A stretch of DNA of 63,854 nucleotides from Planctomycetota bacterium (GTDB taxonomy: Bacteria > Planctomycetota > Planctomycetia > Gemmatales > Gemmataceae). The translations under genes were made by a program, and so were the position numbers. Shown one piece after another: positions 9,332-52,700 of the stretch; the first letter of the stretch is position 1, and each line of letters opens with the position of its first letter. Below the pieces are notes generated by a model. It had not been told where the DNA came from and ran no database searches. It saw only the letters and a program-made list of their open reading frames with translations. The stretch is taken from positions 1-63,854 of the forward strand of contig JACPPF010000086.1 of NCBI GenBank assembly GCA_016191165.1, written 5' to 3'.

Positions 9332-9334
9332 TGG

Positions 9335-10564
9335 TTAGCGCACAATGCGCGTTTCCATTTCCGCGCGAATCGCCTCGATCTTGACGCGGTTGACGATGTC
9401 GTTGGCGAACGCGAAGGTCAGCAGTCGTCGCGCCGGTTCGAGCGGGATGCCACGCGATTGTAGGTAAAACAACTGGGTCGCATCGAGCTGACCGATGGTG
9501 GCGCCGTGCGTGCATTTCACGTCGTCGGCGAAGATTTCGAGCTGAGGCTTGGTATTGATGGTCGCGTCGTCGGAGAGGAGCAGCACCTTGTTCGTCTGCT
9601 TGGCGTCGGTCTTCTGGGCGTCCTTGCGGACGAAGATCTTGCCGTTGAAGACTCCATGCGACTTGCCGTCGAGGATGCCCTTGTACAATTCATGGCTCGC
9701 GCAGTTGGGCTGAGCGTGGTCGATGACGGTAAAGTTGTCCATGTGTTGCTTGCCGTCAGCGAGGTAGAGGCCATTGACGGTCGCCTCGGCATGTTCGCCG
9801 TCGAAGCGAACGCGGACTTCATTGCGCACCAGGGCGCCGCCGAGCGAGAGATAGTGCGTCGTGAAGTTGCTCTTGGCGGCCATTACGACCTGCGTGTTGG
9901 CGATGTGGTAGGCGCTTACGCTTTCCTCTTGCACCTTCACATGGTCGAGTACGCCATAATCGCTGAGGGTAATCTCAGTGACAGCATTTGTGAAGTATGT
10001 TTGGCCGCCAAAGTATCGCTCAACGACAGTAGCCCGGGCATTTTTTCCGATGACGATCAACGTTCGGGGCTGAATAACAACTGGCTTCTCATCAGATCGA
10101 GCATAATGGATGATCTCGATCGGCGTTTCAAGAATGACGTCGTCGGGGATGGTCACGTAAAGTCCGTCCGCGACAAAGCTCGCATTGAGCGCCGTGAATG
10201 CATTGGCACGGACGTCCGCGATTTTGCCGACGAGTGGAAGGCTGCTTGGCGCATTCGCCAGGGAGCCGATCGAGATTGAGCTCGGAACGGGCGATGAAAT
10301 TGCAGGGGCGAATCGACCATTGAGAAAGTGGAATTGCAACTTGTTTTTCGGCGCCGCGGGGCCGCTCTCCATCAGCGCATTTGGCAATTCGAATGATGTC
10401 TCGGCGAGCGGCGCGATATTGGTGAAGCGCCAATCCTCTGACCTCACCGTCGGCAACGGCAGCGTCGCGAAGCGCGCCCGCGCTTCCTCACGCAGAGCGC
10501 GATAGCGCGGCGTCGCATCGCGATCGAACGGGGCGAATAGTTTCGTGAACATTGTCTTGTCCAT
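9335..10564 (-). CDS. sufD: Fe-S cluster assembly protein SufD
   Basis: 409 residues. SufD partners SufB in the SufBC2D scaffold that builds [Fe-S] clusters. The N-terminal half has 'SEDWRFTNIAPLAETSFELP'; the C-terminal half is the SufBD beta-helix core, with 'DNFTVIDHAQPNCASHELYK', 'GVFNGKIFVRKDAQKTDAKQ' and 'CTHGATIGQLDATQLFYLQS', including the conserved His of the cluster-forming site, and 'SRGIPLEPARRLLTFAFAND' at the end. ATG at 10564 used; a second ATG at 10552 (residue 5) is equally possible. It lies between palindromic repeats on both sides in the suf operon; its stop codon is only 3 bases from the repeat at 9256-9331. Confidence 0.95.
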   Translation of the reverse strand: MDKTMFTKLFAPFDRDATPRYRALREEARARFATLPLPTVRSEDWRFTNIAPLAETSFELPNALMESGPAAPKNKLQFHFLNGRFAPAISSPVPSSISIGSLANAPSSLPLVGKIADVRANAFTALNASFVADGLYVTIPDDVILETPIEIIHYARSDEKPVVIQPRTLIVIGKNARATVVERYFGGQTYFTNAVTEITLSDYGVLDHVKVQEESVSAYHIANTQVVMAAKSNFTTHYLSLGGALVRNEVRVRFDGEHAEATVNGLYLADGKQHMDNFTVIDHAQPNCASHELYKGILDGKSHGVFNGKIFVRKDAQKTDAKQTNKVLLLSDDATINTKPQLEIFADDVKCTHGATIGQLDATQLFYLQSRGIPLEPARRLLTFAFANDIVNRVKIEAIRAEMETRIVR

Positions 10565-17370: not shown

Positions 17371-17718
17371 ATGCCTTCAGGTGACGTTGCTTTACTCGAA
17401 CCGCTACCGACGTACAGCGTGCGACTGCATCGTCTGGACCCAACGCTGGCGGAATTGCGCATCGCGTTTGCCGATCTGCCCGCGGACGTGCAGGTGAGCG
17501 GGCGGCTGATGGGCCCGCGGTGCAAGGGGATGAGCACGGTGGAAATCGCGTATCCCCTGCGGCCGCACTCCTTTCCCGAATGGAGCGTCCTGATCCCCGA
17601 ACCGATGTTGTGGGAGGAGGATGCGCCCTACATTTACGGAGGTCCCGTCGAGTTTCGCCGCGATGGGAAGCCGGTCGGCAAGATCCTGGTTTCGTGCGGC
17701 ATCAAGGTTGGCTCGTGA
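17371..17718 (+). CDS. small beta-sandwich protein resembling a GH2 immunoglobulin-like domain
   Basis: 115 residues, 10 bases after queA. The C-terminal half 'LIPEPMLWEEDAPYIYGGPV' followed by 'EFRRDGKPVG' and 'CGIKVG' follows the pattern of the Ig-like beta-sandwich domain of glycoside hydrolase family 2 ('P.LW.P..P.LY...VEL..DG'..'GIR'). There is no catalytic domain and no signal peptide. The resemblance is from pattern recognition and could be superficial. Its last 17 bases overlap convergently the 3' end of bioDA. Confidence 0.75.
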   Translation: MPSGDVALLEPLPTYSVRLHRLDPTLAELRIAFADLPADVQVSGRLMGPRCKGMSTVEIAYPLRPHSFPEWSVLIPEPMLWEEDAPYIYGGPVEFRRDGKPVGKILVSCGIKVGS

Positions 17719-20802: not shown

Positions 20803-21735
20803 CTATACACAGACGGGCAGGCCCATCGCCCGGAAAAGTTGCGCGTCTCCCTCCGCGGACGGGTTCGGCGCCGTCAGCAACTTGTCGCCGAAGAAAATCG
20901 AGTTGGCCCCGGCCATGAAGCACAGCACCTGCAATTCCCGGCTCATGCGATCACGGCCCGCGCTCAGGCGCACGCGCGCTTGCGGAAACGCGATGCGCGC
21001 CGTGGCGATCAGGCGCACCAGCTCAATCGAATCGACAGGTCCGGCGTTTTCAAGCGGGGTGCCCGCGATGGGAACCAGGCAGTTGATGGGCACGCTTTCC
21101 GGCGTTTTTGCGAGGTTGGCGAGTTCGACGAGCAGACGCAAGCGATCGTCTTCGCTCTCGCCCATGCCGATGATGCCGCCGCAACAGACCGAGATGCCCG
21201 CATCCTGCACGGATTGCAGTGTGCGCAAGCGGTCGTCATAGGTTCGCGTCGAGATGATGTGCGGATAATACTCGCGGGAAGTGTCGAGATTGTGGTTGTA
21301 GGCCGTCAAACCCGCCTCGGCCAATCGCGTTGCCTGTCGATCGCTCAACATGCCGAGGGTGACGCAGGCTTCCATGTCAAGATCACGCACGACACGGACC
21401 ATGTCGAGCACCTGCTCGAACTGGGGTCCGTCCTTGACTTCGCGCCAGGCGGTCCCCATGCAAAAGCGCGTCGCGCCGAGTTCCTTCGCCCGGGTGGCTT
21501 TCGCTCGCACCTCGTCCAGGTTCATGAGCGGCGTTGCCTCGACCCCGGTCTTGAAGCGAGCGCTTTGCGCGCAATAGCCGCAATCCTCCGGGCAGCCACC
21601 GGTCTTGACGCTCAGCAGGACGCAGCGTTGAATGTCCGCGGGGTCGTGATGAAGCCGATGGGCCTGCGCCGCCCGAAATAGCAAGTCGGGCAGAGGCGTG
21701 AAATAGACTTCGCGAAATTCCGCCAGCGTTTTCAT
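20803..21735 (-). CDS. bioB: biotin synthase BioB
   Basis: 310 residues. Radical SAM enzyme that inserts sulfur into dethiobiotin. The SAM-cluster motif is C48-x3-C52-x2-C55 in 'TGGCPEDCGYCAQSARF'; 'CVTLGMLSDRQA', 'YNHNLDTSREYYPHIISTRT' with 'YDDRLRT' and 'CCGGIIGMGESEDDRL' are typical. ATG at 21735 is used because homology starts there; an in-frame ATG at 21771 would add 12 residues. First gene of the biotin operon; needs [4Fe-4S] and [2Fe-2S] clusters, made by the suf system encoded nearby. Confidence 0.96.
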   Translation of the reverse strand: MKTLAEFREVYFTPLPDLLFRAAQAHRLHHDPADIQRCVLLSVKTGGCPEDCGYCAQSARFKTGVEATPLMNLDEVRAKATRAKELGATRFCMGTAWREVKDGPQFEQVLDMVRVVRDLDMEACVTLGMLSDRQATRLAEAGLTAYNHNLDTSREYYPHIISTRTYDDRLRTLQSVQDAGISVCCGGIIGMGESEDDRLRLLVELANLAKTPESVPINCLVPIAGTPLENAGPVDSIELVRLIATARIAFPQARVRLSAGRDRMSRELQVLCFMAGANSIFFGDKLLTAPNPSAEGDAQLFRAMGLPVCV

Positions 21736-22121
21736 CGTGATTTTCCGTGCGGTGAGGAACAACTCGGGCATTTTATGGACTTCTGAAAAAAAGGCCGTCC
21801 AGCATGGGCGGCTCGGGAGTGGTACTTTCTGAAGTAGGTCAGGCATTCTTGCCTGACAGCAGCCGCGAAATGTCAGGCTGGAAAGCCTGACCTACGGCAA
21901 ACTGTACCACCACCGGCCGCTCAAGAGGATTGCCTTTTCTGATCGCCAGGTATAGAACGAACCAATCTAATGTGAATCGGTCGGACCCCCCACCCAAGAC
22001 AAAGTTCGACCTGTGAGATTATCCTTCTCGGTTGACTGAACACACCTGAGTCGTCTTTCTTTGTTAGCGCCAAAATCACGGGTAGGCCCCGCGATGCGGC
22101 GGTTGTTTTTTTCCCGGTGGC
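21736..22121. other. intergenic region upstream of bioB
   Basis: Contains the palindromic repeat at 21834-21895, and otherwise a moderately AT-rich stretch between two divergent genes, where promoters for the biotin operon (minus) and the gene at 22122 (plus) should lie. I see no clear BirA operator palindrome and no gene. Confidence 0.5.
21834..21895. repeat. palindromic repeat (GTAGGTCAGGC family)
   Basis: GTAGGTCAGGC opens the element and GCCTGACCTAC closes it. Each arm is also self-complementary (GTCAGGC/GCCTGAC). A second, tighter copy lies at 33001-33053 between cheA and cheB. Confidence 0.85.
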
Positions 22122-30860: not shown

Positions 30861-31745
30861 TCATCCGTCGCGCCGTTTCACCATCGTGATCGCGTTGCCC
30901 TTGTCGTTGTAACCCACGAAATCCATGAACGTCCGAATCAGGAGTAAGCCGCGACCGCCAATCCGTTCCAGGTTCGTCGCGTCGCCTGGGTCGCCCAGAG
31001 TGGACGGATCGAAACCCTGGCCTTCATCGCGCACGGTGTAAGTGGCTTCGGTCGGCGTAATGTGGATGTCCATGTGAACACGCCGATCCTGATAGGGGTC
31101 TTGCGACCGGCGCGTTTTGACAGTCTGGTGATAGATCGTCTCATCTTGTTGGCGCAAGTCGGAGCTTACTTCGAGATTGCCGTGATAGATCGCATTAAGA
31201 CACGCCTCCTGCAGGGCGACGCCAATGCGCATGCGTTCCGTGGCGTCGTACAGACGTTGTAGTTCGATGATGTCGTTCAGATAGCCAATGATTGGCGCAA
31301 TGTAAGTCGGATCGTTGTCGATGACGAAGTGCAATTCGAAACTCGCCAGGCGCTCGAAGGCCCTGGCGTGTTGCCGATGGACGCTCGTCAGGGCGAGGAT
31401 GCGCTCCAGCGTGGGGAGAACGTCGCTCATGAGGGAGGTCTTGGGAATGTAGCTGGCTGCGCCGTCGCAAAGGGCCTGGGCGGCAATCTTCTCGCTGCCG
31501 TGCGCGGTCATCAGAACGACGGGAATCCACGGGTATTCCTTGCGAATCTTCTTGACCAGCTGAAGTCCGTTCAGGTTCGGCATCTCCAGGTCGGTCAAGA
31601 CGATATCCGGAGCGGCCCGGGCGATGACCTCGAGCGCCAGCACACCATCCGCGGCCACGTCCACCTGATAGGGGCCCTCCTCGAGCAAAAGCTGAATCGC
31701 TTGCGCCTGCGTTGGGCTGTCTTCCACCACGAGTACGCGGGTCAT
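30861..31745 (-). CDS. response regulator with RsbW-like HATPase output domain
   Basis: 294 residues. Receiver domain at about 1-120 (acidic pocket E8-D9, phospho-acceptor D52 in 'VLTDLEMP', Thr in 'VVLMTAHG', Lys in 'SYIPKTS'). The C-terminal part (about 150-290) is a GHKL ATPase of the serine kinase/anti-sigma type: 'MRIGVALQEACLNAIYHGNL' (N box), 'YTVRDEGQGFDPSTL' (G1), 'NLERIGGRGLLLIRTFMD' (G2). There is no DHp histidine domain, so it is not a histidine kinase. Phosphorylation by the operon's CheA would probably switch an anti-sigma/partner-switching activity. AAGGAGCG precedes the ATG. Last gene of the chemosensory operon, where Wsp systems have the GGDEF protein WspR. Confidence 0.9.
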   Translation of the reverse strand: MTRVLVVEDSPTQAQAIQLLLEEGPYQVDVAADGVLALEVIARAAPDIVLTDLEMPNLNGLQLVKKIRKEYPWIPVVLMTAHGSEKIAAQALCDGAASYIPKTSLMSDVLPTLERILALTSVHRQHARAFERLASFELHFVIDNDPTYIAPIIGYLNDIIELQRLYDATERMRIGVALQEACLNAIYHGNLEVSSDLRQQDETIYHQTVKTRRSQDPYQDRRVHMDIHITPTEATYTVRDEGQGFDPSTLGDPGDATNLERIGGRGLLLIRTFMDFVGYNDKGNAITMVKRRDG

Positions 31746-31834
31746 GGGACGCTCCTTTCGCCTTTTTGCGACGCCTGATCAGGTGACGCTTGAATCGACT
31801 TGACAATACCAAGCCACGAGGGGGTAGGTGCAAT

Positions 31835-32863
31835 TCAGGTAACCAGCTCGACCAGGGAGGCAGCGATTTCGTCGATGGGCAACACTTCGTCGGCAAGACC
31901 CGCGGCAATGGCGGCGCCGGGCATGCCAAAGACGACGGAACTTTTTTCATCCTGGGCGAAAATGCGCCCACCGGCCTTGCGCACTGCGAACAAGCCCGCC
32001 ACGCCGTCTTCTCCCATACCTGTCAGGATAACCGCGCCAGCCGCGGCGCCATAGACCTGGGCGACCGATTCAAAAAGAAACGTTGCCGAGGGGCGGAATC
32101 CGCCGATCGGCGGCGTCTCGACAAGGGCGATTTGGCCCCGGGTCGAAACGCCCAGATGACGATCGTCCGGCGCCAAATAGATGGTGCGTTTGGTCAACTT
32201 CTCCCCCGCTTCGGCGACCTTGACGTGGAGCGGCCCGGACTTGTTCAGCAAGTCTGCCAGCCCTTTGACGAAGCCCGCACTGATGTGCTGGACAACCAGA
32301 ATGGGGACGGCGAAGTCTGGTGGCAAGCCCGTGACGATGCGTTCGAGAGCGGCCGGTCCGCCGGTACTCGACGCGATGGCGATGACCCGCGCACGCGTGG
32401 CGTGATGTGATGCGGGCGTCCGGGACCGCGCCGCCGAACCGGTCCGCCGCCAGTGCCTCACAACCTTGACCTGCGCCATCGCCTTGACCTGCGTGATCAA
32501 ATGTCGGGCCTGTTCGTCGAAACCAGGGCCCGCCGGTCCGGTCGGCTTGGCCATGATCGCCAGCGCCCCGGCGCGCAGGGAATTCATCGACATCTCCACA
32601 TCCTGGATCGATCGGCTGGCGGTGACGATCACAATGGGCGTCGGGATCTCGATCATGATCTCCTTGGTCGCTTCCAGGCCGTCCATGCATGGCATGCGCA
32701 GGTCCATGGTAACGATGTCGGGCCGAAGCCGGCGCGTGAGTTCGACCGCCTCGGCGCCATTGGTCGCCTGACCGATGACCTGAAGCTCCGAATCCGTGGC
32801 GAAAATGGCCGCGAGCAGGCTGCGCGCCGTCGCGGAATCATCGGCAATGAGGACGCGAATCAT
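31835..32863 (-). CDS. cheB: chemotaxis-type methylesterase CheB
   Basis: 342 residues. N-terminal receiver (D54 in 'VTMDLRMPCMDG'; Lys in 'IMAKPTG'), linker (about 125-158), C-terminal methylesterase with catalytic triad S166 ('IASSTGGPAAL'), H193 ('VVQHISAGFV') and D286 ('GMGEDGVAG'). Removes methyl groups from receptor glutamates (or deamidates glutamines) in feedback adaptation. It is the WspF position of the operon. Separated from cheA by the palindromic repeat at 33001-33053, and from the next gene by 89 bases. Start at ATG 32863 gives the normal 'MIRVLIADDS' N-terminus. Confidence 0.96.
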   Translation of the reverse strand: MIRVLIADDSATARSLLAAIFATDSELQVIGQATNGAEAVELTRRLRPDIVTMDLRMPCMDGLEATKEIMIEIPTPIVIVTASRSIQDVEMSMNSLRAGALAIMAKPTGPAGPGFDEQARHLITQVKAMAQVKVVRHWRRTGSAARSRTPASHHATRARVIAIASSTGGPAALERIVTGLPPDFAVPILVVQHISAGFVKGLADLLNKSGPLHVKVAEAGEKLTKRTIYLAPDDRHLGVSTRGQIALVETPPIGGFRPSATFLFESVAQVYGAAAGAVILTGMGEDGVAGLFAVRKAGGRIFAQDEKSSVVFGMPGAAIAAGLADEVLPIDEIAASLVELVT

Positions 32864-33000
32864 GGGTATTCCATTTCCGTTCGTGCTATTCGATTGGGCA
32901 AGCCGAGTCGCGTGAGCAGCCGGTTGACAATGAGGACCGCATCAGGCCGCCCGGTTCGTCGATACGGTCAAACTTTGGCTTAGAGTGCTCAGAACAATGA

Positions 33001-33053
33001 AAGTAGGTCAGGCTTTCCAGCCTGACCGTCAGGCTGGAAAGCCTGACCTACTT
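33001..33053. repeat. palindromic repeat between cheA and cheB (GTAGGTCAGGC family)
   Basis: AAGTAGGTCAGGCTTTCCAG and its complement form a long inverted repeat around the centre CCTGACCGTCAGG. Each arm is also self-complementary (GTCAGGC/GCCTGAC). The second copy in the window is at 21834-21895. Confidence 0.9.
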
Positions 33054-33089
33054 CATTTCTTTGGACGATCTTACGGCAAAACGGCGCTG

Positions 33090-35387
33090 CTATAACATCT
33101 GGTGGATCGTCTCCAGGAGATTGCGTTGATCGAACCCGCTTTTCACCAGATAGGCGTTTGCACCTACTTCGATTCCGCGCGCCTTGTCCGCTTCACTCTC
33201 GCGGGCTGTAACGAGGATAACGGGCATTTCGGCATGCGGTTGGGAGGCGCGGATAGCCGCGGTCAAATCGAAGCCGTCCATGTTGGGCATATCGACGTCG
33301 CTGACGACGAGATCGAATTGGGCGTGCTGCAAATCGTGCCAGGCCGCCTGCCCGTCCACGGCGGTAGCGATTTCAAAGCCGGCCGCCTCCAAAATGCTCT
33401 TCATGAGTGTGCGGGTGGTCATGGAATCCTCGACGATGAGGAGTCGTTTTCGGACCGCGACCGGTGTTGCCGCCTGGATCGGTCTTCGCGCCGTGGGGAC
33501 GCCGCCTTCACGCAGAACCGTGCGCATGAGGTTGGCGGCATTGAGCACAAGGGCGATCTGGCCCGAAGGCAAAAGGGTCGCGCCGGCCACAAGCGGCACG
33601 CGGCGAATGCGCGTTCCCAAATTCTTGATGAGAATCTCTTGCTCCGTCAACACCTCATCCACGATGAACGCCACACGCCTCGCTCCCGATGCCACAATCA
33701 CGATGGACAGTCCATCGTGCGTAGCTTCCAGGACGAAACGCGGATCAAGGATTGACCCCAGAACTGCCAGCGGCAACGGGACTCCGTCACAAGTGAGTAT
33801 CTCGCGCCCGGACACCGTGCGAATGTCGGAAACCCGGGCCTTGACCATCCTTTGCACGTTTGCGCCGGCAAATGCGCAGGTGCGCCCGCCCGCTCGCACC
33901 AGAACCGCACGCAGCGTCGTCAAGGTCAGCGGCACGGTCAGAATGAAGCGAGTGCCCAGACCGACCGTGAACGATAGATCCACCGTGCCGTGCAAAGATT
34001 CGGCGGCGTTCTTGACAACATCCAACCCGACACCGCGTCCGGAGACGTCCGTGATGATTGAAGCCGTGGAGAAGCCGGGTTGAAAGATCAAACGGGCCAG
34101 TTCGCGATCGTCGGCAGGCTCTTCGATCTTGTGCCGCCGCGCCTGTGCACGCACGTTTCCCAGGTCGATGCCGCGGCCGTCGTCGGCGACCGTGATCTCG
34201 ACTTGCGACCCCCGCAACGCGGCGGAGATGCGAATGGTGGCCCGCGCGGGCTTACGAGCCCGTAGGCGTTCAGCCGGCAGTTCGATGCCATGATCCAGAG
34301 CGTTGCGAACCAGATGCCTTAGAGGGTCTTTGAGCCCCTCGAGGATGGAGCGATCCAGTTCGACCGCGCCGCCTTCGATGTTGAATTCGACGTCCTTGTT
34401 CATCGTCTGGGCAAGATCGCGGATCATGCGGTCGAGGCCTGCGCAGGCATCCGCGAACGGCAACATTCGGATTCGGCGCACGTCATCATCCAGCGGGCGC
34501 GTGACCTGATCGAGCAACCGTGAATCGCTCGTCATCGTCAGCGCCAGGCGTTCAAGAGCCTTGTCGAGAAGCCGCAGGTTTTCCCCGGCCTGACGCAGGG
34601 TCTTGGCCACTCGTTTGGTCAAGGCCGGCGTGCCGCGATCCGCGGCGCTGTCGGCGGCGCGGGGGGCCTTGCCGAAAAAATGGTCCACGCGCTTCCAATC
34701 GGATTTCCATTGCGCGACCAGGTCCTGCAAGCCCAAGAGGTCCGTGGCGCGTGCCTCGATCCGGCGCTGCGCGACCTGCAACTCGCCGACGCGCGCCAGC
34801 AGCGAATCCAGTTTTTCCGCGGCCACGCGCACGCTGGTGGAGCCGGCGCCGCCGTCCCAGATGTTTTCGGCGCCGGTCGGCAGCGAGGCCGCGACGGGGG
34901 CCTCCACCCTGGCCTGCGCGTCGTGCTGCGCGGGCACGGGTTGCTTCGGTGCGGATGGCGCCTTTTCCACGGCTGGCAACGCCGCCCCGCGGCACGCCGC
35001 CTCCAGGCGGGGCAGCAACGCTGCCAGCGGCGCGTCCGCCAAATCCTGTTGCTCGCGCAAACGCATTCCCGCCTCTTCAAACGCATCGACCGCCGCGAAC
35101 AACAGGGCGAACACCTCCTGGCCGAGAAACCTCTCGCCATCGCGAACGCTCACGAGGATTTCTTCCAGGCTGTGGCACGCGGCCTCGATCGGGTCGACGT
35201 TCACGGCCCGTGCTGCCCCCTTCAGGCTATGCGCCGTCCGGAAGAGCGTCTTGAAACGTTGCGCCTGTTCCTCGGGCGGAGGGTTCTTTTCCAGCGCTAA
35301 AAGATCCTGGTTGAAACTTCGCACGTATTCCTCGAGTTCCTCGAGAAACGTCGCCATCAAACGTTGCATGATTTTGCTTTTGTCCAT
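33090..35387 (-). CDS. cheA: hybrid CheA histidine kinase with C-terminal receiver (WspE-like)
   Basis: 765 residues. Hpt domain (about 1-115) with phospho-accepting H53 in 'RTAHSLKGAARAV'; Ala/Pro linker (about 135-185) without a recognisable P2 CheY-binding domain; dimerisation region (about 190-320); HATPase ('HLVRNALDHGIELPAERL' N box, 'VADDGRGIDLGNV', 'GFSTASIITDVSGRGVGLDV'); CheW-like domain (about 480-615); receiver domain (about 640-765) with Asp in 'VVSDVDMPNMDG'. This Hpt-kinase-CheW-REC order is that of WspE and ACF-class kinases. It should phosphorylate its own receiver, CheB and the REC-HATPase protein. ATG at 35387 gives 'MDKSKIMQRLMATFLEELEE'; the upstream open frame is unsupported. 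Confidence 0.95.
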   Translation of the reverse strand: MDKSKIMQRLMATFLEELEEYVRSFNQDLLALEKNPPPEEQAQRFKTLFRTAHSLKGAARAVNVDPIEAACHSLEEILVSVRDGERFLGQEVFALLFAAVDAFEEAGMRLREQQDLADAPLAALLPRLEAACRGAALPAVEKAPSAPKQPVPAQHDAQARVEAPVAASLPTGAENIWDGGAGSTSVRVAAEKLDSLLARVGELQVAQRRIEARATDLLGLQDLVAQWKSDWKRVDHFFGKAPRAADSAADRGTPALTKRVAKTLRQAGENLRLLDKALERLALTMTSDSRLLDQVTRPLDDDVRRIRMLPFADACAGLDRMIRDLAQTMNKDVEFNIEGGAVELDRSILEGLKDPLRHLVRNALDHGIELPAERLRARKPARATIRISAALRGSQVEITVADDGRGIDLGNVRAQARRHKIEEPADDRELARLIFQPGFSTASIITDVSGRGVGLDVVKNAAESLHGTVDLSFTVGLGTRFILTVPLTLTTLRAVLVRAGGRTCAFAGANVQRMVKARVSDIRTVSGREILTCDGVPLPLAVLGSILDPRFVLEATHDGLSIVIVASGARRVAFIVDEVLTEQEILIKNLGTRIRRVPLVAGATLLPSGQIALVLNAANLMRTVLREGGVPTARRPIQAATPVAVRKRLLIVEDSMTTRTLMKSILEAAGFEIATAVDGQAAWHDLQHAQFDLVVSDVDMPNMDGFDLTAAIRASQPHAEMPVILVTARESEADKARGIEVGANAYLVKSGFDQRNLLETIHQML

Positions 35388-35463
35388 GAGATTACGTCCC
35401 GATCGTCCGGTTGGTCGCCTGGCGTTCGCGTGGCTAAAGATAGCGCCTGGCCATGAGCGAATG

Positions 35464-36912
35464 TTATTTTCCAACCAAGGAGGTCAGTTGATTCCCTAGC
35501 TGGTTGAGGTTGGTCGCCGCCTGGGCCGCCTGCCGGGTCGCGACGGTGTTTTGCTTGGCGACCTGGTCGATGTTCCTCATGGCCTGGTGCACCTGGCTCA
35601 TGCCGGTCGCTTGCTGGCTGATGGAGGCGACGATTTGCGTCGTGGCGCGGGCGACCTCCGCGAGCGTGTCGGCCAGCGCCTTGATGGTGTCGCCGGCCTG
35701 AGTGCCCACTTTGATTGCGCTGGCGACGCCCCGGGTCACCTCTTCGGTCGAAAGGACGGCCGTGTTGGTCGCCTTCTGGATTTCGCCGAGAATCTGCCGG
35801 ACCTGGCTGGTCGCCTTCTTGGATTGATCCGCCAGGGCCTTGACTTCGCTGGCAACCACGGTGAAGCCCTTGCCATGTTCCCCCGCGCGGGATGCTTCGA
35901 TGGCGGCGTTGAGGGCCAGCAGATTCGTCTGCTCGGCAATTTCGTTGACCGTGGCAATGATGTCGCTGATCGCCTGGGCCTGCTCGGCAAGCGTCAGGAT
36001 ATTTTCCGCGGTGGCCTCGACCTTCTCCTTGACCGCATCCATGGCCACAAGCGAGTCATCGACGACTTTGCGCCCGGTCTTGCCGATGTCGAGCGTCCGT
36101 TGCACGGTTTCACCGACCACTTTGGCGCGCTCGGCAGCCTGATCGGCGGTTTGCGTGATCTCATTGACCGTGGCCATGGTCTGCGTGACGGCGGCGGCCT
36201 GCTCTTGCGCGCCGGATGCCTGCTGCGTGGTCCCCGCGAGAATTTCAGCGCAAGCGGTCGTGAGCTGATTGACTCCCTCCCGAATCGTCGTGGTGATCGC
36301 CCGGATGATAAACCAGCCCGCCAGGCCCGTGAGGGCAAAGGCCAGGATAGCCGCGATGCCGATTGAATAGGTCGTGATTTCGGCGCCCTTTCGCGCTCGC
36401 GTCTGGCGTTCGTTGAGCAGGCCATATTCGTCGTCGTTGAGCTTCTTGAGCGTGTCGCGCACGGCTTCCATGATTTTCTTTCCCTCGCCCGTCTTGACGG
36501 CGGCGATCGCGGCTTCAAAGCTTTTGGTTTCGGCCAACTGAATGGTATCGGCGGCAATTTTCCCTCGGGCCTTGACCAGTTCTTCGAGCTTTTCCAGCCG
36601 CTTTTGTTGGCTGGGGTTGTCATTGGTCAACTCGACAAGATCGGCTTGCGTTTTCAACACCCTGGGCAACGCCGCGTGATAGGGTTGCAGGAAGGTTGCG
36701 TCCTGAGTCAACAGGTAGCCGCGTTGGCCCGTTTCCATGTCCACCATCAAGGAGTGCATCGTGTTGAGGTTATCCAGTACAAGGAGGGTGTGGGCCACTT
36801 TGTGATTGGTCTCAAGGAGGCTAAAAATGCTCCAGAGCGAGAGCCCGCCGAGGAACGCAACGAACGCCAGCGCCAGGGCGAAACCGCCCGCGATTTTTTT
36901 GCCGATGGTCAT
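35464..36912 (-). CDS. methyl-accepting chemotaxis protein with CHASE3-type sensor
   Basis: 482 residues. Membrane helix 1 (about 8-30), extracytoplasmic CHASE3-like helical sensor (about 35-185; '[20 protein letters not shown]' is characteristic), membrane helix 2 (about 185-207), and a cytoplasmic signalling domain with the conserved hairpin tip '[20 protein letters not shown]' and '[20 protein letters not shown]'. A HAMP domain is not evident after helix 2: the segment before the coiled coil is short. AAGGAG lies 6 bases before the ATG. It is closely related to the next receptor upstream (36946-38550), probably a tandem duplication. Confidence 0.95.
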
Positions 36913-36945
36913 GATTTCTCCTTCCCCCGCGCGACGTTGCCAGGG

Positions 36946-38550
36946 TTATTCCGCCGTCAGACTGGCCAAACGAGCACCGAGCGTATTGAGGTTTTCCGCC
37001 GCCTTCGTCGCCTGGCGGGTTGCGATGGTGTTTTGCTTGGCGACCTGATCGATGTTCTTCATCGCCTGGTGAATCTGGGTCATGCCGGTTGCCTGCTGGC
37101 CGATCGAGGCGGCAATTTGGGTGACGACGCGCGCCGTGTCCGTCAGGGTTTCCGCGAGGGTCTTGATGGTCTCACCGGCCTGCCCGCCGACCTTGATCGC
37201 ACTGGCGACCCCGCGGGTGACCTCCTCGGTGGAAATTACGGCGCTGTTGGTGGCCTTCTGAATTTCACCGAGAATCTGCCGCACCTGCCCCGTGGCCTTC
37301 TTCGATTGGTCCGCCAGCGCCTTGACCTCGCCGGCGACCACCGTGAACCCGCGGCCATGCTCCCCCGCCCGCGACGCCTCGATAGCGGCGTTGAGCGCCT
37401 GCAGGTTCGTTTGCTCAGCTATGTCATTGACCGTCGCAATGATGTCGCTGATGGCTTGCGCTTGCTCGGCGAGGCCAAGGATGTTCTCGGCCGTGGCTTC
37501 GACTTTCTCCTTGACGGCTTCCATGGCATCCAGGGAATCCTCGACCACTTTGCGCCCGCTGGTGCCGATCTGCAGGGTCTTTTGTACACTTTCGCCGACG
37601 GCCTTGGCGCGCTGGGCGGCCTGGTCGGCGGTCTGAGACACCTCGTCAACGGTGGTCATGGTTTGGGTGACGGCGGCGGCCTGTTCCTGGGCGCCGGTCG
37701 CCTGCTGGGTCGTGCCCGCCAAGATCTCCGCGCTGGCGGAGGTAATCTGGCTTGCCGCCGTGCGGATTCCCTCGTGTACCTGCTGACGTTTTTCGGTCAT
37801 TCGGTTGAACGCCCGCGCCAGCTCGCCGATTTCGTCGTTCGCGCCCACGTCCACACGGTGGCCAAGCATTCCCTGACCGATTAATTCGGCGCCATCCAGC
37901 AGTCGCCGAATCGGCCGGCTTATCGCTCGGGCTGTGAAGTAGCCGACTGCCGTGACGAATAAAAACGCCAGCAGCGTCCCGACGCCGATGGTGGTCAAGG
38001 TGACCCATGCGCTGAACTCCGCCGCCGACTGACGAGTCTTTAATTCGATCGTCTCGACCTCCTCCATTTCCCCGGTCTTGACGCGGATTTGTTGCGTCAA
38101 ATCCATTCCCGTCCTCGATTTGACCAGTTTGATGGCCGCTGCGAGTCCCTTGTCGGGGTCTTTGGATTGGCCCACGTCAATGGTCAGTTTGGCAAATTTC
38201 AGTCTTGCCGCGATCAGCCTTTCGATATCCTGGAGGCGCGCTTCTTGCCTGGCGTCTCCGGCGATCAGGCCGCGCAAATGTTCCTTGGCTTTTTTGCCTT
38301 CCTCGATTGCTTCCTCGTAAGGTTGCAGGAACGCCGCGTCGCCTGTCAGAAGGTAACTCCGCTGGCCATTCTCCACGTCCGTCATCAGGGTATGCAACCT
38401 GCGGACCTCTTCCAGAACTCGATACCGGCGTGTAACCAGGCGATTGGTTTCCAGTAGTTCCAAGGTGCTCAGAAAGGAAAGTACACCAATCGAAACAAGG
38501 ATCAAGAGTTCCAGCGCGAGACCGAGCCAGACTTTCTTTGCGATGGTCAT
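36946..38550 (-). CDS. methyl-accepting chemotaxis protein with CHASE3 and HAMP domains
   Basis: 534 residues. Membrane helix (about 8-30), CHASE3-like sensor ('[20 protein letters not shown]', about 35-185), membrane helix (about 188-212), HAMP (about 212-265; '[20 protein letters not shown]' with '[13 protein letters not shown]'), signalling domain with tip '[20 protein letters not shown]', where Gln replaces the more common Leu. Ligand unknown. GGAGGTG lies 7 bases before the ATG; the ATG overlaps the stop of the upstream cheW gene (ATGA). Its signalling domain is nearly identical to the following receptor, but only this one has HAMP. Confidence 0.95.
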
Positions 38551-39197
38551 GATTTCACCTCCGGGTATCTTGGGGCGGTATCCTCGCCCAGGTCAATTAC
38601 CAGGCGTGGGTCATGGAGTAGCGCGGCGCCATCGAGCAGGATCAACGCGTCTGGCGTCACGCCGCGCAGGTAGTCGCGGGCGATGCCCGCCACCGACTCG
38701 GGGGGTTCCTTCACCTGAGAGATGGCCAAATTGGCCACCTCGTGGACCGAATCCGCCAGCACGCCGAATTCGATTCGTTCCTGCCCGAGCACAATCAGGC
38801 GCGAACTCTCCGTTTCGCCGTTGGTCGGTATGCCGAAAAAACGGCGCAAATCGAAGACGGCCAGGATTTGGCCACGCAAGTTGGCGATGCCGGCGAGGAA
38901 TTCGGGCGTGCCTGGCAGCGGGGTGATCCCGCGAGAGCGCAGAACCTCGCGAACATGGTTCGTCTCGAGGGCATACCGTTCATTCCCGAGCGTGAATATT
39001 ACGATCTCCAGAATCGTGCCCGCCGCCGGCGCCGAGTCGGGAACGCGGGCGATTGCGCGGGCCCGCTCCTCAAGGACCGCCTGCACACGCTGCGAGCCCG
39101 TGTGCCGCGCCGCCTCGGCGGCCCGGGCGGCCTCACCCAGGCGGTCGCGCACCGTCTGCCAGTCGAGGCCTGCGAGTTTTTTTTTGGCAGTCAGCAT
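38547..39197 (-). CDS. cheW: CheW-like coupling protein with N-terminal extension
   Basis: 216 residues. An N-terminal helical extension of about 60 residues ('[20 protein letters not shown]', '[17 protein letters not shown]') precedes the CheW fold (about 63-205; '[20 protein letters not shown]', '[20 protein letters not shown]', '[12 protein letters not shown]'). It couples receptors to the kinase. The extension is of the type seen in some Wsp/ACF CheW proteins, possibly for receptor-array contacts. GGAG is 9 bases before the ATG. Overlaps mcp at 38547-38550. Confidence 0.93.
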
Positions 39198-39203
39198 CTT
39201 TAC

Positions 39204-40634
39204 TTACTCCGGCAAATCCAAAAGCGCCAGTTCGGCTGCGGCGATCTCGGCCAACCGCCCCGCCGTTTCGCCCTCTCCGAACGGGACCGGCTCATCGGCC
39301 GGGCGGCAGCCGCAGAGATTGCGCGCGTTGCGGTACGCGCGGCAGGCGCCCGCCGCATCTCCACGTTGGCGCAGAATGGCCCCAAGCGTGAAATGGGCGA
39401 TCGCCAGCGTGCGATCCAGATAGAGAACGCGGCGCATGGCGTTGGCTGCCTCGTCGTTCCGACCCCGGTCGAACCATAGCATCGCGTTGAGGAAGTGCAG
39501 TTCGGCGGACAACGGAAACTGACCCGTCGCCTGGGCGCAAAGCGTTCTCGCCGCCGCCGGATCGAGATTCGCCAGGACGCGAACCTGCCTGGCCGCGGCC
39601 TCAGCGCCATCCTCGGAATCAACGGACCCCTGGACCGAACCGGTATCAACGCCGTCCCTCAACGCCAGCCGAGCCGAGTCAAGGCCCCCTTCCGCCCGCG
39701 CCGGCACCATGAGCCTGGGTACGGCGGCGTCCGTGGCTTCCGGCTCCGAGACAGCGGCACGGCGAACCTCCTCCACCGCCAGGGCGGGCGTGGTTTTCAC
39801 CGGCCGGACCGTCTCGCCGCCGGGCTTGCGATAGAACAGTCCATCCAAGTCGGCAATGACTTCAAACGGCGCATGATCCCACAAAGGCGGATCCGCGGAC
39901 GCCGCGATCAGCCAGCCGCCGACTGTAAGGGACTGATAGAGCCGTTGCGCCGTGCGACGTACGGTTTCCTTGTCGAAGTAAATCAGGACGTTGCGGCACA
40001 AGATCAGATCCATGCCCCAGATGCCGGTGGCAAACGAGGGATATACATCCAGGGCCAGGTTCAGGGCCGAGAATTGCGCGCGGCGGCGCGTATTCTCATC
40101 CAGCCGATAGTTTTTGCCGACCGGGGTCAGCGCGGGAAAAGCCGCGCATGCCCCATCGCCCCGGAGCGACCAGGCACTGTAGAGTCCGTGCCTGGCCTTG
40201 GTCAGTGCTGCCCGGGAAATGTCGGTCGCCGTCAGATGAATTCGGTCGCCCAGTCCGATTTGCTCGAAAAGAATGGCAAGCGAATACGCCTCCTCGCCGC
40301 TCGCGCAGGCCGCGCTCCAGATGCGAAGGGCATGGTCACTGCCTCGTTGCCGCAGGATTTCCGGGACGATCCGATGCTGTATGAACTGGAAATGGGCGGG
40401 CTCGCGAAAGAAGTAGGTCTCGCCCACCGTCAATTCCGTGAGCAAGTCGTCCAGGGCACGCTCGTCGGTGTCAAGCCGATCGACATACTGAAGCGGATCG
40501 TCAATCCCCGCTCGCGCCATCGCCCGGCGCATGCCCTGTTCCGCACTTTCCTGGCAGGTGGCAAGCGAAAGGCCGGATCGCCGGTTGACGAAGTTGGCCA
40601 CGACCTCGAAGGCCGACTGGGTCCAGGTGGTCAC
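39204..40634 (-). CDS. cheR: CheR methyltransferase with C-terminal TPR region
   Basis: 476 residues. CheR N-terminal helical domain (1-70; 'FEVVANFVNRRSGLSL'), SAM-binding methyltransferase ('ELTVGETYFFREPAHF', 'RIWSAACASGEEAYSLAILF', 'ATDISRAALTKARHGLYSAW', 'MDLILCRNVLIYFDKETVRR', about 70-275), a low-complexity linker (about 280-345), and a TPR-like C-terminus (about 345-470; 'AELHFLNAMLWFDRGRNDEA', 'RAYRNARNL'). Such TPR-CheR proteins are typical of Wsp (WspC). Start is GTG at 40634, preceded by AAAGGAGGTG inside the upstream cheW gene; the two genes overlap by four bases. Confidence 0.95.
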   Translation of the reverse strand: MTTWTQSAFEVVANFVNRRSGLSLATCQESAEQGMRRAMARAGIDDPLQYVDRLDTDERALDDLLTELTVGETYFFREPAHFQFIQHRIVPEILRQRGSDHALRIWSAACASGEEAYSLAILFEQIGLGDRIHLTATDISRAALTKARHGLYSAWSLRGDGACAAFPALTPVGKNYRLDENTRRRAQFSALNLALDVYPSFATGIWGMDLILCRNVLIYFDKETVRRTAQRLYQSLTVGGWLIAASADPPLWDHAPFEVIADLDGLFYRKPGGETVRPVKTTPALAVEEVRRAAVSEPEATDAAVPRLMVPARAEGGLDSARLALRDGVDTGSVQGSVDSEDGAEAAARQVRVLANLDPAAARTLCAQATGQFPLSAELHFLNAMLWFDRGRNDEAANAMRRVLYLDRTLAIAHFTLGAILRQRGDAAGACRAYRNARNLCGCRPADEPVPFGEGETAGRLAEIAAAELALLDLPE

Positions 40635-41128
40635 GGTCCCACCTCCTTTTCAGCGGCTCGCGCCGGCGTCGGCCCGATCTCGGTCAGGTTCCTTTGACTT
40701 GCCAGCGCTAACAAATCCTGCGCTCGATGCAGGAGGATCAGACCATCCCCCACCTTGGCAACACGTGCCCCGGCTTCCCGCGCATCCACCGTGTCAACGT
40801 CGGCAATCGCGGCCGGGTCCAGGCGCGCCAACTCCAGGGCCTGATCGACATGCACCGCGGTCAAACGATCGTGCAGCCGAAGGACGATAAAATGATCGGT
40901 TAGCGCCACGCCTTTGACAGGCATCCCAAACCGGCGGCGGAGACTCAGGACCGGCACGATTCCGCCCCGTAGATTGATGACCCCTTCAAAGCCCCTTTCC
41001 AGGAAACCCGCATTGGGTACCGGCATGATGGCAAGCGCTGGCAGCAGTTCCTGCACCTCCGCCACGGGCACACCATGCCGTTGGCCGTCCAGGCTGAAAA
41101 CCAGGATGTCCAGGAAATCCGGATTCAA
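40631..41128 (-). CDS. cheW: CheW coupling protein
   Basis: 165 residues; first gene of the chemosensory operon. CheW fold: 'ILVFSLDGQRHGVPVAEVQE', 'GFLERGFEGVINLRGGIVPV', 'SLRRRFGMPVKG', 'VAKVGDGLILLHRAQDLLAL'. It starts with TTG at 41128 (no ATG is near), with GAGG 7 bases upstream. Two CheW proteins, one at each side of cheR, are expected for a Wsp-like system (WspB and WspD positions). A 170-base gap to the upstream gene should hold the operon promoter. Confidence 0.93.
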   Translation of the reverse strand: MNPDFLDILVFSLDGQRHGVPVAEVQELLPALAIMPVPNAGFLERGFEGVINLRGGIVPVLSLRRRFGMPVKGVALTDHFIVLRLHDRLTAVHVDQALELARLDPAAIADVDTVDAREAGARVAKVGDGLILLHRAQDLLALASQRNLTEIGPTPARAAEKEVGP

Positions 41129-46566: not shown

Positions 46567-46750
46567 TTGACAGCGGTCCCGGCCGATCTTGCCGGTCGCA
46601 CTGAGAAAAGAAGCCTGTCAAAATGGGAAAGAAAATTTCACGAGAAACTTTCAATTTTTCTCCTTTACATTTGCCGATGAATTGGTAGTCTTGTTAAGTT
46701 GGGTAAGTTGGAAAATAGCGCCTTCGTCCCTTTTTTTGGAGTGTGGATTC

Positions 46751-49700
46751 ATGTTTATTTCCTGGGCTCGGCTGATGTGGAAGCGGATGTGGAATGGCGC
46801 TCGCAAGGCGAAGATGGCTCCACGTTGGCGCCCGTCCCTGGAAATGCTCGAAGGACGTCTGGCTCCGGCCGTGTTCAATATCACCGACTTCACCGACGGG
46901 CTGGCTCTCAATCAGCTGCGCGGCGCCATCTCCGAGGCAAATAGCAACGGGGATATCAGCAATACCTTCAACCTGGGCGTCGGAACCTATGGTCTTACCA
47001 TTGGCAACACATTTGGGCAGGAAAATCTCAACGCCCAGGGCGACCTCGACCTGACCGCCAACGGCAAGACCTACATCTTCAACGGCGTCAGCACGGCTTC
47101 CACATTCATTGACGCCGGCGCCATCGACCGCGTCCTTCAGATCACAGGCACCGGCGTCACGGCCCGCTTCGACAGCGTGACCCTACAAAACGGCCGGGCA
47201 ATCGACGATGGCTCCGACGGCGCCGAGGGCGGATTCACCGACTCTCGCGGCGGCGGCATCCTCGTCACCGGCTCCGCGAACCTCTCGTTCACCAACGCCC
47301 TCGTCACCAACAACATAGCCGTCGGGTTTAACGGCAACAACGGCGCGAGTGGATCGTCCCCAAGCGACAACGCCAACGGCGGTGCCCCCGGCACCAACGC
47401 CGCGGGCGGCGGGCTCTACTCCGTCGCGGGCAACATTACGCTGACAAACTCCGGCTTCCAAAACAACACGGCCCAGGGCGGCAGCGGCGGCAACGGCGGC
47501 ATTGGCTTCACCGGCTCCAACCCCAGCAACGGCGGCGATGGCGGCGAAGGCGGCAACGCCCAGGGCGGCGGCATCCGCCTCGGCACCGGCAACGTCGAAC
47601 TTCACGACAACGCCTACGTCAACAGCAACTTCGCCTACGGCGGCAACGGCGGCATCGGCGGCAACGGCGGCGATAGCACCTCCGCCTACGGCGGCGCCGG
47701 CGGACTCGCCGGACGCGGCGGTAGCGGTGGCAACGCCGAGGGCGGCGGCATCTGGATCGCCGACGGCGACGTCCTCATCGATCCCTCCACCATCAATTCC
47801 AACTTCGCCGGCGGCGGCAACGGCGGTAACGGCGGCAACGGCGGAGATGCCTACGGCGGCACCGGCGCCTACGGCGGCGCCGGCGGCGCCGGCGGCACGG
47901 CCGGCGACGGCGGCGACGGCGGCTACGCCAGCGGCGGCGGCGTCTATGTCCTGCTCGGCAACGTCACCATCGATGATGCCTCCCAGGCCAATAGCAACAG
48001 CGCCAACGGCGGTTATGGTGGTTTCGGCGGCTACGGCGGCAACGGCGTGAATGGCCCGACCGTGTCCTTTGTCGGCGGCGACGGCGGCAACGGCGGCAAC
48101 GGCGGCAACGCCTCCGGCGGCGGCATCTGGGCCAGCGAGGGCGACGTCACCGTCGATAACTCCTCCACCGTCAACAGCAACAACGCCCGCGGCGGCGAGG
48201 CCGCCCGTGGCGGCGACGGCGGCAACGGCGGGTTTGGCGGCGGCAACGGCGGCGACGGCGGCGACGCCGGCAATGCCTCCGGCGGCGGCATCTGGGTCAA
48301 CTCCGGCGCCGTCCGCGTTGACAACGGCTCGCAAGTGAATAACAACAACGCCGGCGGCGGCGCCGTGGTCAGCATTACCAGTCTCATCGGCAACGTGACC
48401 GACTTCGAGGATGCCGACACCCCGACCTTTGCCACCGTGATTGCCGGTCGCTTGGTGTTCACGACTCCGGGCTACGCTCATTCGCATGGCGGGCTCACGA
48501 CGATCACCGTGGAGGTCCACGATCCAAATCCCGACACCTGGACCGTCGTTTTCACAACCGACCTCGACAACAGCGACGAGTTCAACTTTGACGGCCTGGA
48601 TATTACCTTCACCCCCCAACCCGTGGATCAGGTGCGACTCACCTCCGACCCCGATCAAAACAATACCTACCATGGCTGGTCCCCGTTGTTGCTGCAAATT
48701 GGCGAAGCCGGCGCCCGTGGCAATGGCGGTAACGGCGGCTTCGGGTCGTCCAGCGACGGCAACGGCGGCACTGGCGGCAACGGCGGCAACGCCTCCGGCG
48801 GCGGCATCTGGGTCAACACCGGGTCCGTGCTCGTGGATAACCTTTCCCAGGTCGATAACAACTCGGCCGCGGGCAACACGGCCGGCGATGGCGGCGCAGG
48901 CTTCTTCGGCACCAGCCTCGGCGGCGCCGGCGGCAGCGCGGCGGGCGGCGGCATCTGGATTAGCGACGGCGACGTCACCATTAACCAATCCTCCTCCGTC
49001 AACGGCAACGGTGCCAGCGGCGGTAACGGCGGCGCAGGCAATGGCGGCGGCTTTGCCCCCGCTCAGGCCACCTCCGCTCCCAACCCCGGACAGGGCGGTA
49101 ACGCACGCGGCGGCGGCATCTGGGCCTATGGCGGAATGGTTACCGTGGACAATTCTTCCACGGTCAACCTTAACCGGGCCAGCGCCGGCGCGGGCGCGGA
49201 CGGTTTCGATGGCGGCGAGGGTGGCGACGGCGGTACGGGCGGCAATGCCTCTGGCGGCGGTATCTGGGCCGAACTCGGCGATGTCACGGTCGATAACTCC
49301 TCCTCCGTTGATTCCAACCAGGCCATCGCCGCCCAGGGTGGTGACGGCGGGTATGGTGGCGCGGGCGGCGACGGCGGCTTTGGCGGCAACGCCGAGGGCG
49401 GCGGCATCTGGGCCAGCCAGGGTTCGGTGACCATCAATCAATTCTCCTCGGTCAACGGCAATTCAGCCTACGGCGGCGACGGCGGCGACGGCGGCGACGG
49501 CGGCTACGGCGGCAACGGCGGCTACGGCGGCAACGGCGGCTACGCCTCGGGCGGCAACGTCTGGGCCAGCGCCGGAAACGTTTCCTTCGATAACAACTCC
49601 GATGGCGGTGAAGGCGCAGCTTTCGGCGGCGATGGCGGCGATGGCGGCGACGGCGCCTACGGCGGCGGCAACGGCGGCCACGGCGGATTCGGCGGCGATG

Positions 49701-52700
49701 CCGCCGGCGGCAACATCTTTGCCTTCGATGGCGCGGTGACCCTCGATAACAACTCCGACGGCGGCATAGGCGCAGCCATCGGCGGCGACGGCGGGGAAGG
49801 CGGCTCCGGCGGGTACGGCGGCGGCGACGGTGGCGACGGCGGCAATGCTGGCTCCGCTTACGGCGGCGGCATCTGGGCCTACCAGGGCAACGTCCGCGTC
49901 GATAACAACTCCAACGTCAACTCCAACTTCGCCTCGGCTGGCTCCGCGGGCAATGGCGGTTTCGGCGGCAATGGCAACTACGGCGGGCAAGCCGGCCACG
50001 GCGGCTTCGGCGGCAACGGCGGCGGAGCCGAAGGCGGCGGCATCTGGGCCTACGGCGGGAACGTGACCATTGAAAACGGCTCTTCCGTCAATAACAACTC
50101 GGCGCACGCCGGAAGCACCGCCGGCTTTGGCGGCTTCGGCGGGTTTGCCAATGGCGCGGGTGGCATTGGCGGTGATGGTGGCGAAGGCGGCGATGGCGGC
50201 AGCGCCTACGGCGGCGGTATCTGGGCCTACGAAGGCGATGTCACTGTCGCCTACGGATCCTCCGTTGACTTCAACCGCGCACGCGCGAGCGCCGGCGGCG
50301 ACGGCGCCGAGGGCGGCTTCGGAAATTCGGGCGCCAGCGCCGGCGATGGCGGAGCAGGCGGCAATGGCGGCAATGCCTTGGGCGGCGGCGTCTGGACCCG
50401 CAACGGGAATGTCAATCTCGACTACGGCTCCTCCATCGACGGTAACCTGGCGGACGGCGGCGATGGCGGTTCCGGCGCGTCCGGCGGCAGCGGTAACTAT
50501 GGCGGCGGCAACGGTGGCTTCGCCGGCAACGGCGGCTTCGCCCAGGGCGGCGGCATCTGGGCTCTCAACGGCGATGTCACCGTCGACAACAACTCCTCCG
50601 TGGATAACAACCAGGCGGCCGGCGGGGAAGGCGGGCGCGGCGGCTTTGGCCGTTACGGCGGAAACGGCGGCGATGGCGGCCAGGGCGGCTACGCCCAGGG
50701 CGGCGGTATCTGGGCCGATGGTGGAAATGTCACTGTCGATAACTCCTCTTCCGTCAACAGCAACGAGGCTGCGGGCGGCGACGGCGGCGCCGCCGCCGAT
50801 GCCAACTCCGGCGGCAACGGCGGCCAGGGCGGCAACGGCGCGTTCGCCCAGGGCGGCGGCGTCTGGGCCTACAACGGCGATGTCACCGTCCAGAACTCCT
50901 CCTCCGTAAACAATAACCGCGCCGCAGGCGCTGAAGGCGGCTACGGCGGCAACGGCGGCGGCAATGCCATCACCGGCGGCGATGGCGGCGACGGCGGCTC
51001 CGGCGGCGATGGCCAGGGCGGCGGCATCTGGGCCTTCAACGGCGAGGTCTCCGTCGTGTCCTCCACCGTCAATAACAACGGCGCCTACGGCGGCGATGCC
51101 AACTACGCCGGCGACGGCGCCAACGGCTCCTCTTACGGCGGCGCCGCCGGCAACGGCGGCGATGGCGGCAATGCCGAGGGCGGCGGTATCTGGATCAACT
51201 CCGGCGCCGTCACGCTCACCGCCTCCACCGTCGACAATAACGCCGCCCAGGCCGGCTTCGGCACCGACGGCGGCAACGGTAACGCGAACGCCTTCGGCTC
51301 CACCGGCGGCATCCTCTACATGGTGGAGGACGGAAACTTCAGCGGGCTGTTCACCCTCGACACCACCACTGGCGCCGGCAACAACATCGGCGAATCCGGA
51401 ACCGACAGCTCAACGGACGGCCTGACCGAAACCGACGACCCCAGCGTCCTCATCGGCTCGCAATACGACCCGATCGTGCGCATCAACGCCGACGGGTCCG
51501 GGTCAACCTCCACCGGCGGCAACCAGGGCGCCGAGGGGCTGGCGTTCGATCCAACCTCCAACACCTACTACGGAATCCTCAACGAGGACTTCTTCACCTT
51601 CGACCCCGTCACCGGTAACCGGCTGGCGACCTTGGCCGGCTCGCCCGACGACGTGGAAGGTCTCGCCTACGGCGGCCCCGATACGATCTACGGCCTGACC
51701 AGCAACGCTGAAACCGACGGCGACCTCTACCGCTACACAATCAGCACCGATACCTGGGAACTCATCGCCAACACCGGCATCGAGTTCAGCAGCGCGGGCC
51801 TCGCCTACGATCCCGTTAGCGACATCCTCTACGCGAAGGGTTCGCAGGACACCAACCTTTACCAGATCAACCCCGCCACGGCCGAGGCCACCCTGGTTGG
51901 CGATACCGGCGTCTCCGGGGGCGGCGGTTTGGCCTTTGTGGCCGGCGAACCCGTCGGCAACGGCGGTAACGGCGGTTCGGCGCTGGGCGGCGGCGTCTAT
52001 TCCGGCAACGGCGGCGCCACCGTCACCGTCTACAATTCCACCGTCTCCAACAACTACGTCCAGGGCAACGACGGCGGCAACGCCGGCACGGGTGGGACCA
52101 CCGGCGGTACTCCCACTGCCGGCAACGGCGGCGATTCCCTCGGCGGCGGCATCTACACCGATGGCGGAACCCTCCGCCTCTTCAACAGCACCGTCTCCGG
52201 CAACGACGCGGACTACGGCGGTAACCCGGGCGCCAGTTCGCCGTCGGTCAACGCCGCCTCCAGCGCTCCCAACGGCGCGGTCGGCGTCTCCCAGGGTGGC
52301 GGCATCTTCGCCGGCGGCGGCAACGTCACCCTCCGCAACGTCACCATCGCCGATAACACCGCGGCCGACGAAGGCGGCGGCCTCTTCAACGCCTACGGCG
52401 GCAACCTGTCGCTCTTTAACACCATCATCGGCGACAACGACAGCTTCAACACCGACGAGGACGATTTCTCCAACCAGGGCGCGTTTGCCGCCACTCCGCT
52501 CAACAACCTGATCGAAACCCCGGATGGGCACACCATCGCCAACAACGTCAACGGCAATATCGTCGGGTTCGACCCGGTGCTCGGGCCGCTCCAGGACAAC
52601 GGCGGGCAAACCTTGACGCATCTGCCTGGTTTTAGCAGCCCCGCCATCGACCACGGCAATAACGCTCAAGCGACTGGACCGAACGGCCAGTTCATGAACC

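Follow-up and report, generated by a model that had tools for sequence, protein, structure and literature searches.

What does a chemosensory array control in a bacterium without a recognizable flagellum for it to serve? The question is raised by a locus on the reverse strand, at positions 30861-41128, of the 63,854-nucleotide stretch of Planctomycetota DNA analyzed here (the window), which is contig JACPPF010000086.1 (C78) of a 7.2 Mb genome of 95.28% completeness. Its eight genes, every one above Pfam cut-offs in a scan of the window's proteins, read 5' to 3' as cheW, cheR-TPR, cheW, mcp, mcp, cheA-REC, cheB and a gene for a receiver joined to an RsbW-type ATPase (REC-HATPase_c_2), as an earlier note made from the sequence had laid them out (Table 1). 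We consider it probable that the locus is a non-motility chemosensory system, of the alternative cellular function (ACF) type, in which CheA drives an RsbW-type partner switch whose STAS partner is encoded elsewhere in the genome.

The earlier note held that the terminal effector is a receiver with D52 joined to an RsbW-type ATPase, not a GGDEF protein, and that it has no histidine-phosphorylation domain; Pfam bears out both statements. D52 is conserved in 96% of 50 full-length homologues, the window's protein included. In the same set D9, D52, T80 and K102 of the receiver and E180, N184, H188-G-N, D240, G242, G244 and the GRG at 264-266 of the ATPase are at least 90% conserved, and so are R212, P217, Y218 and R221 in the segment between the N box and the G1 box. 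A coverage filter had excluded three of 47 family loci (L062, L067, L070), and also L124, from this alignment. The output protein displays the traits of the RsbW/SpoIIAB type, namely an HATPase_c_2 domain with N, G1 and G2 boxes and the N-box glutamate, which has a catalytic role in kinases of this type. HisKA, Hpt and PP2C domains were not found in it by Pfam, HATPase_c fell short of E 0.001 where HATPase_c_2 matched, and the sole strongly conserved histidine among the homologues is H188 of the N box. Among known structures, the 304-aa chain of SenB (PDB 9qih) aligns across the receiver as well as the HATPase part (query residues 35-290, E 1.2e-16); literature searches naming SenB led to neither its organism nor its function. 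A PDB search with a short peptide was uninformative, no plasmid record retrieved with the output protein as query covered 80% of it, and a contig scan yielded two loci matching residues 1-151 and 46-116, mainly in the receiver.

The assignment to the ACF type follows from the presence of cheA, cheW, mcp, cheR and cheB with a multidomain response regulator as output, from the CheR-TPR fusion, and from the absence of FliG from a genome that is 95% complete. CheW domains have three matches genome-wide, all at this locus, and a genome-wide search for FliG (FliG_C) gave none in the 95.28% complete assembly, so that this is the sole chemosensory system found and there is no recognizable flagellum for it to serve. 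Flagellar chemotaxis is accordingly disfavored. CheR-TPR is typical of ACF clusters, which carry multidomain response regulators, and in such clusters the receiver has been described as fused to histidine kinase, GGDEF, Hpt, phosphatase and nucleotidyl cyclase domains (PMC3447774). In the accessible text of that paper, HATPase is mentioned only within the HisKA-HATPase module, and an output of the REC-RsbW type, such as the window has, is not named.

In the pathway that we propose, a membrane signal or ligand would reach the CHASE3 receptors of an array made of two such receptors, two CheW proteins and CheA, with adaptation provided by CheR-TPR and CheB. CheA would autophosphorylate and pass phosphoryl groups to CheB, to its own receiver and to D52 of the output. 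Phosphorylated D52 would then alter the RsbW-type domain, either as a kinase or in what it binds, shifting the phosphorylation of an anti-anti-sigma-like STAS partner encoded elsewhere in the genome, by which a sigma factor (most likely) or another downstream regulator would be freed or captured. What the sequences show is the list of parts and their evolutionary link; that CheA donates phosphoryl groups to the output, that the ATPase acts as a kinase on a STAS serine and in which direction, and which proteins serve as partner and target, is inferred.

The genome offers candidates. It has nine STAS matches (eight over cut-off), eight SpoIIE phosphatases (seven over cut-off), 15 RsbW-type ATPases (ten over cut-off) and 45 matches to sigma-70 region 2. 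A STAS gene is paired with an RsbW-type ATPase gene on contig C115, and with a SpoIIE gene on contig C172. STAS and sigma candidates and the ATP-binding boxes of the output are thus all present, and the earlier note's proposal that the array is linked to partner switching, along with its suggestion to look for STAS partners in the genome, has held up to this extent.

A comparison with relatives shows how the output gene is placed. When CheB was searched for in 397 genomes of the class, 21 had a match at E 1e-70 or better; 14 of these, the window included, make up what we call type-A operons (CheB identity 49-61% for the other 13). A further locus, in genome G011 (L137), has a type-A cheA on a contig that stops within cheB and lies outside the 14 operons scored for outputs. 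REC-HATPase_c_2 stands behind cheB in six of the 14 (the window, G186, G273, G378, G342 and G392); among the 13 relatives it follows cheB directly in five and is the commonest output. The same place is taken by a REC-HisKA-HATPase protein in three operons (G230, G135, G191), by a REC-guanylate cyclase and then a receiver-histidine kinase (REC-HK) in G233, by a hybrid kinase in G084 and by a REC-REC-Hpt protein in G151. No recognized output was found behind cheB in the remaining two (G277, G159). The operon of G273 reads cheB, REC-HATPase, a STAS gene, a hybrid kinase and a second REC-HATPase, and that of G378 (L221) has REC-HATPase, REC-Hpt, an FHA protein (L221 12854-13852) and a second REC-HATPase.

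These outputs have a feature of their receivers in common. Five of eight Che-linked REC-HATPases open alpha 1 with the motif DSxTQA, against none of 45 others; the three Che-linked proteins without it read SPIQA, SLFQA and SATQR. It recurs in the REC-HK, REC-cyclase, hybrid-kinase and REC-REC-Hpt receivers of type-A operons (one has ES for DS). Of the 226 receivers that the fetched loci contain, 15 have the motif, all beside Che operons (13 in output genes behind a type-A cheB and two next to other Che operons), counts that are inflated by kinship, with at least two separate receiver lineages having the motif. The receivers of CheA, CheB, REC-SpoIIE and WspR differ in sequence at this site. 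In a receiver tree the motif-sharing receivers of the alternative outputs lie apart from those of REC-HATPases, so that the match looks convergent. Alpha 1 of a receiver contacts its kinase partner, and the simplest reading of the common motif is that the outputs of type-A operons are matched to a single type of CheA. An exchange of the effector domain under a common receiver was considered and rejected: the receiver tree keeps the Che-linked receivers inside the REC-HATPase family, which indicates that the whole gene was recruited.

The Che-linked REC-HATPases also have a common ancestry. All eight form one clade in a tree of 53 REC-HATPase sequences, from which L066 had been taken out as a long branch (support 97/92; recovered in 200/200 bootstrap trees). 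A receiver-only tree grouped the five Che-linked copies then available with a support of 97, and the signal for the clade comes chiefly from the receiver part. The CheA proteins that accompany this single clade are split over two lineages, so that the trees are incongruent. A separate clade for the type-A copies was not rejected by an approximately unbiased (AU) test (p 0.262), and the direction and number of transfers between Che lineages are therefore not fixed by the trees.

Several results weigh against a CheA-driven partner switch. No sigma factor of the genome reached the cut-off in a SigBFG search, although five full-length SigBFG-like sigma factors lie below it. The window holds no STAS gene beside its copy of the output gene, and over 124 loci our home-made STAS model detected just one adjacent STAS gene (L176) and another about 9 kb off in a different locus. 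In L222 (G342) the output is followed by an 82-aa STAS-like open reading frame that has no Pfam match, in a gene split between frames. One of the eight Che-linked copies therefore has a firm STAS neighbor and a second a doubtful one, and STAS linkage as a general rule was rejected as too rare across the 124 loci. The five Che-linked copies then available were not grouped in an ATPase-only tree (three changes), and a single-sequence AlphaFold model of the output protein had a pLDDT (predicted local distance difference test) of 43 and was uninformative. Finally, the family at large is mostly not linked to Che genes, so that the window's output protein may take its input from a different kinase. 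It is present in 33 of 59 genomes searched, the window's counted (E 1e-30 or better), and Che genes surround one of 47 family loci from relatives, where the neighbors are frequently receiver or kinase genes.

The alternative that survives best, though we judge it unlikely, keeps the output under CheA and makes it an RsbT-like or generic serine kinase whose substrate lies outside an anti-sigma network, for instance one that activates SpoIIE or modifies other proteins. The REC-SpoIIE genes of sister Che operons, found once together with a REC-HATPase (L144), fit such a kinase, as do a family member fused to PAS-GGDEF (L054) and the FHA gene flanked by REC-HATPase genes in L221. It is opposed by the one firm operon neighbor, encoded about 120 bp behind the REC-HATPase of L176 (G273; Pfam 3.5e-14), which is a STAS protein and has the serine motif, and by the STAS and RsbW-type ATPase pair in the window's own genome. 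Less likely still, by roughly half, is that the output gene is a passenger served by an unlinked hybrid histidine kinase, as seems to be the case for most of the family, its place behind cheB being incidental. The scarcity of Che genes near family loci, many of which adjoin receiver or kinase genes, is what one would expect of a passenger. The single clade of eight Che-linked copies is not, nor is a receiver signature that also marks other, unrelated outputs of these arrays, nor the recurrence of REC-HATPase after cheB in five of 13 related operons. We retain the partner switch driven by CheA as the more probable reading.

We consider it very improbable that the locus is a genuine Wsp system in which the diguanylate cyclase was merely swapped out. 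The earlier note had equated the locus with the Wsp/ACF layout; the gene content and the ACF type stand, and the gene order and the CheA lineage do not match those of Wsp. Gene content, cheR-TPR and cheA-REC are common to both systems, whereas the last gene of the locus encodes REC-HATPase_c_2 and the output of the Wsp comparator is a WspR-type REC-GGDEF protein. In a tree of 41 CheA sequences, one lineage (100/99) unites the window, the type-A operons and an operon on a Sinorhizobium plasmid. The phylogeny that the earlier note had called for leaves the window's CheA outside a second lineage (100/100), which contains the Variovorax Wsp operon with its REC-GGDEF output. The Variovorax operon has mcp first and cheR-cheW-cheA-cheB behind it, and in the window the mcp genes come after the second cheW; the Wsp-lineage operons of the class are, moreover, other loci. 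A single-query search found a REC-SpoIIE gene in 12 of 17 of these Wsp-lineage operons, confirmed by Pfam in all five that were scanned. In two of them (G061, G063) a REC-HATPase sits between cheA and cheB, and that of G061 (L144) holds a REC-SpoIIE as well, so both the kinase and the phosphatase halves of a partner switch occur in Che operons of this class. That the HATPase domain is instead an atypical histidine kinase or a mere ATP-sensing regulatory domain is barely credible: sister operons do place REC-HisKA-HATPase outputs at the same position, but HisKA and Hpt are unmatched in the window's protein, HATPase_c_2 is matched, and its lone strongly conserved histidine is the N-box H188.

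Other members of the wider REC-HATPase family depart from this architecture. One (L054 8549-10609) combines a receiver, an RsbW-type ATPase and a PAS-GGDEF diguanylate cyclase in one chain. In L067 (9990-11397) two genes side by side encode the receiver and the RsbW-type ATPase separately and run convergently with a Wsp-lineage Che operon; the stand-alone receiver bears the EDSPTQA signature. On contig C3 of the window's genome lies a further, more distantly related receiver-ATPase-like gene (L124 1447-2328), which is without the alpha-1 signature.

The nearest precedent is the Shewanella oneidensis Che1 locus with CrsR-CrsA, for which a chemosensory link to partner switching, setting the availability of RpoS, has already been proposed (PMC9855816). 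As described there, CheY, CheD and CrsA, a protein of the STAS type, are all encoded in the che1 cluster, whereas the window locus is without CheY, CheD or a STAS neighbor. HsbR, the Pseudomonas homologue of CrsR, is a receiver-PP2C-kinase/anti-sigma protein in one chain (PMC6482189). The union of REC, PP2C and HATPase in a single chain is the trait that would mark a member of the CrsR/HsbR family, and the window's output protein is without PP2C. The HptB-HsbR-HsbA pathway of Pseudomonas aeruginosa is similar in that a receiver controls a domain of the kinase/anti-sigma type whose target is an anti-anti-sigma protein, but its input comes from hybrid kinases by way of an Hpt protein and its phosphatase is in the same chain, whereas a receptor array stands upstream in the window (PMC6482189). 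The CheA3-CheS3 cascade of Rhodospirillum centenum is Che-like and uses a response regulator-histidine kinase, resembling the sister operons of G230, G135 and G191; the window's output is of the RsbW type (PMC3868531). Our literature searches, with subscription papers largely outside their scope, did not find a Che-linked REC-RsbW output reported. Within the reach of these searches, novelty lies in an RsbW-type output that forms a separate protein with its receiver, in the clade of such proteins dedicated to Che systems, in the way outputs are exchanged behind one array type, and in the receiver signature that these outputs have in common.

Table 1. Genes and repeat pair of the chemosensory locus, in order along the reverse strand.
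Feature	Position	Strand	Evidence
cheW, first coupling protein	40631-41128	-	Pfam CheW 6.1e-22
cheR with C-terminal TPR	39204-40634	-	Pfam CheR 2.9e-36, TPR_2 4.3e-7
cheW, second coupling protein, extended N-terminally	38547-39197	-	Pfam CheW 4e-32
Chemoreceptor, CHASE3-HAMP-MCPsignal	36946-38550	-	Pfam
Chemoreceptor, CHASE3-MCPsignal, HAMP unmatched	35464-36912	-	Pfam
cheA-REC (Hpt, H-kinase_dim, HATPase_c, CheW, REC)	33090-35474	-	Pfam
REP-like palindromic repeat pair in the cheA-cheB gap	33004-33050		Inverted 20-mers
cheB (REC-methylesterase)	31835-32863	-	Pfam CheB_methylest 7.5e-60
Output protein, REC + RsbW-type HATPase, 294 aa	30861-31745	-	Response_reg 1.6e-26, HATPase_c_2 2.3e-21

From the first cheW through cheA, neighboring genes overlap or lie at most 33 bp apart. 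The open reading frame of cheA begins with TTG, and the true start is likely to lie about 29 codons further in. The HAMP-bearing receptor has 140 aa from the tip to the C-terminus and 138 aa from HAMP to the tip, or about 20 heptads per arm, which we take to be class 40H. Between cheA and cheB is a gap of 226 bp with a palindromic repeat inside, and in the 89 bp gap between cheB and the output gene no terminator-like sites were listed. The repeat resembles repetitive extragenic palindromic (REP) elements: inverted pairs of a 20-mer (GTCAGGCTTTCCAGCCTGAC and its reverse complement) occur at 33004-33050 and at 21838-21891. The 20-mer has four matches in the window, where none is expected, and a further exact copy in another locus of the same genome (L199). 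It is a dispersed REP-like element, and the pair between cheA and cheB may attenuate transcription.

Elsewhere in the window, a single frame at 7504-9345 (-) joins a class V aminotransferase of the cysteine desulfurase type to SufE, and a SufBD gene adjoins it. Another, at 17702-19648 (-), joins AAA_26 to a class-III aminotransferase, presumably BioD-type and BioA-type domains of biotin synthesis, with a radical SAM-BATS gene close by (20803-21846). An open frame of 2419 aa without Pfam matches, at 46589-53848 (+), spans the region where the window's GC content is highest.

More tentatively, and with chances that we put a little short of even, the arrays of this class may be plug-in devices. 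The EDSPTQA signature would mark the effector behind cheB, one effector lineage would be a Che-dedicated RsbW-type kinase, and, with the REC-SpoIIE phosphatases of Wsp-lineage operons counted in, the single-chain REC-PP2C-kinase of the CrsR type would be split into a separate kinase and phosphatase, both under control of the array. What is known of chemosensory arrays concerns mostly motility and cyclic di-GMP outputs; if our reading is true, receptor arrays would gain control of partner-switching networks. An alpha-1 signature carried by unrelated receivers provides a testable rule for the pairing of response regulators with CheA, and a Che-dedicated clade of anti-sigma-type kinases in several genera would offer a route to study how methylation-adapted arrays may control global gene expression.

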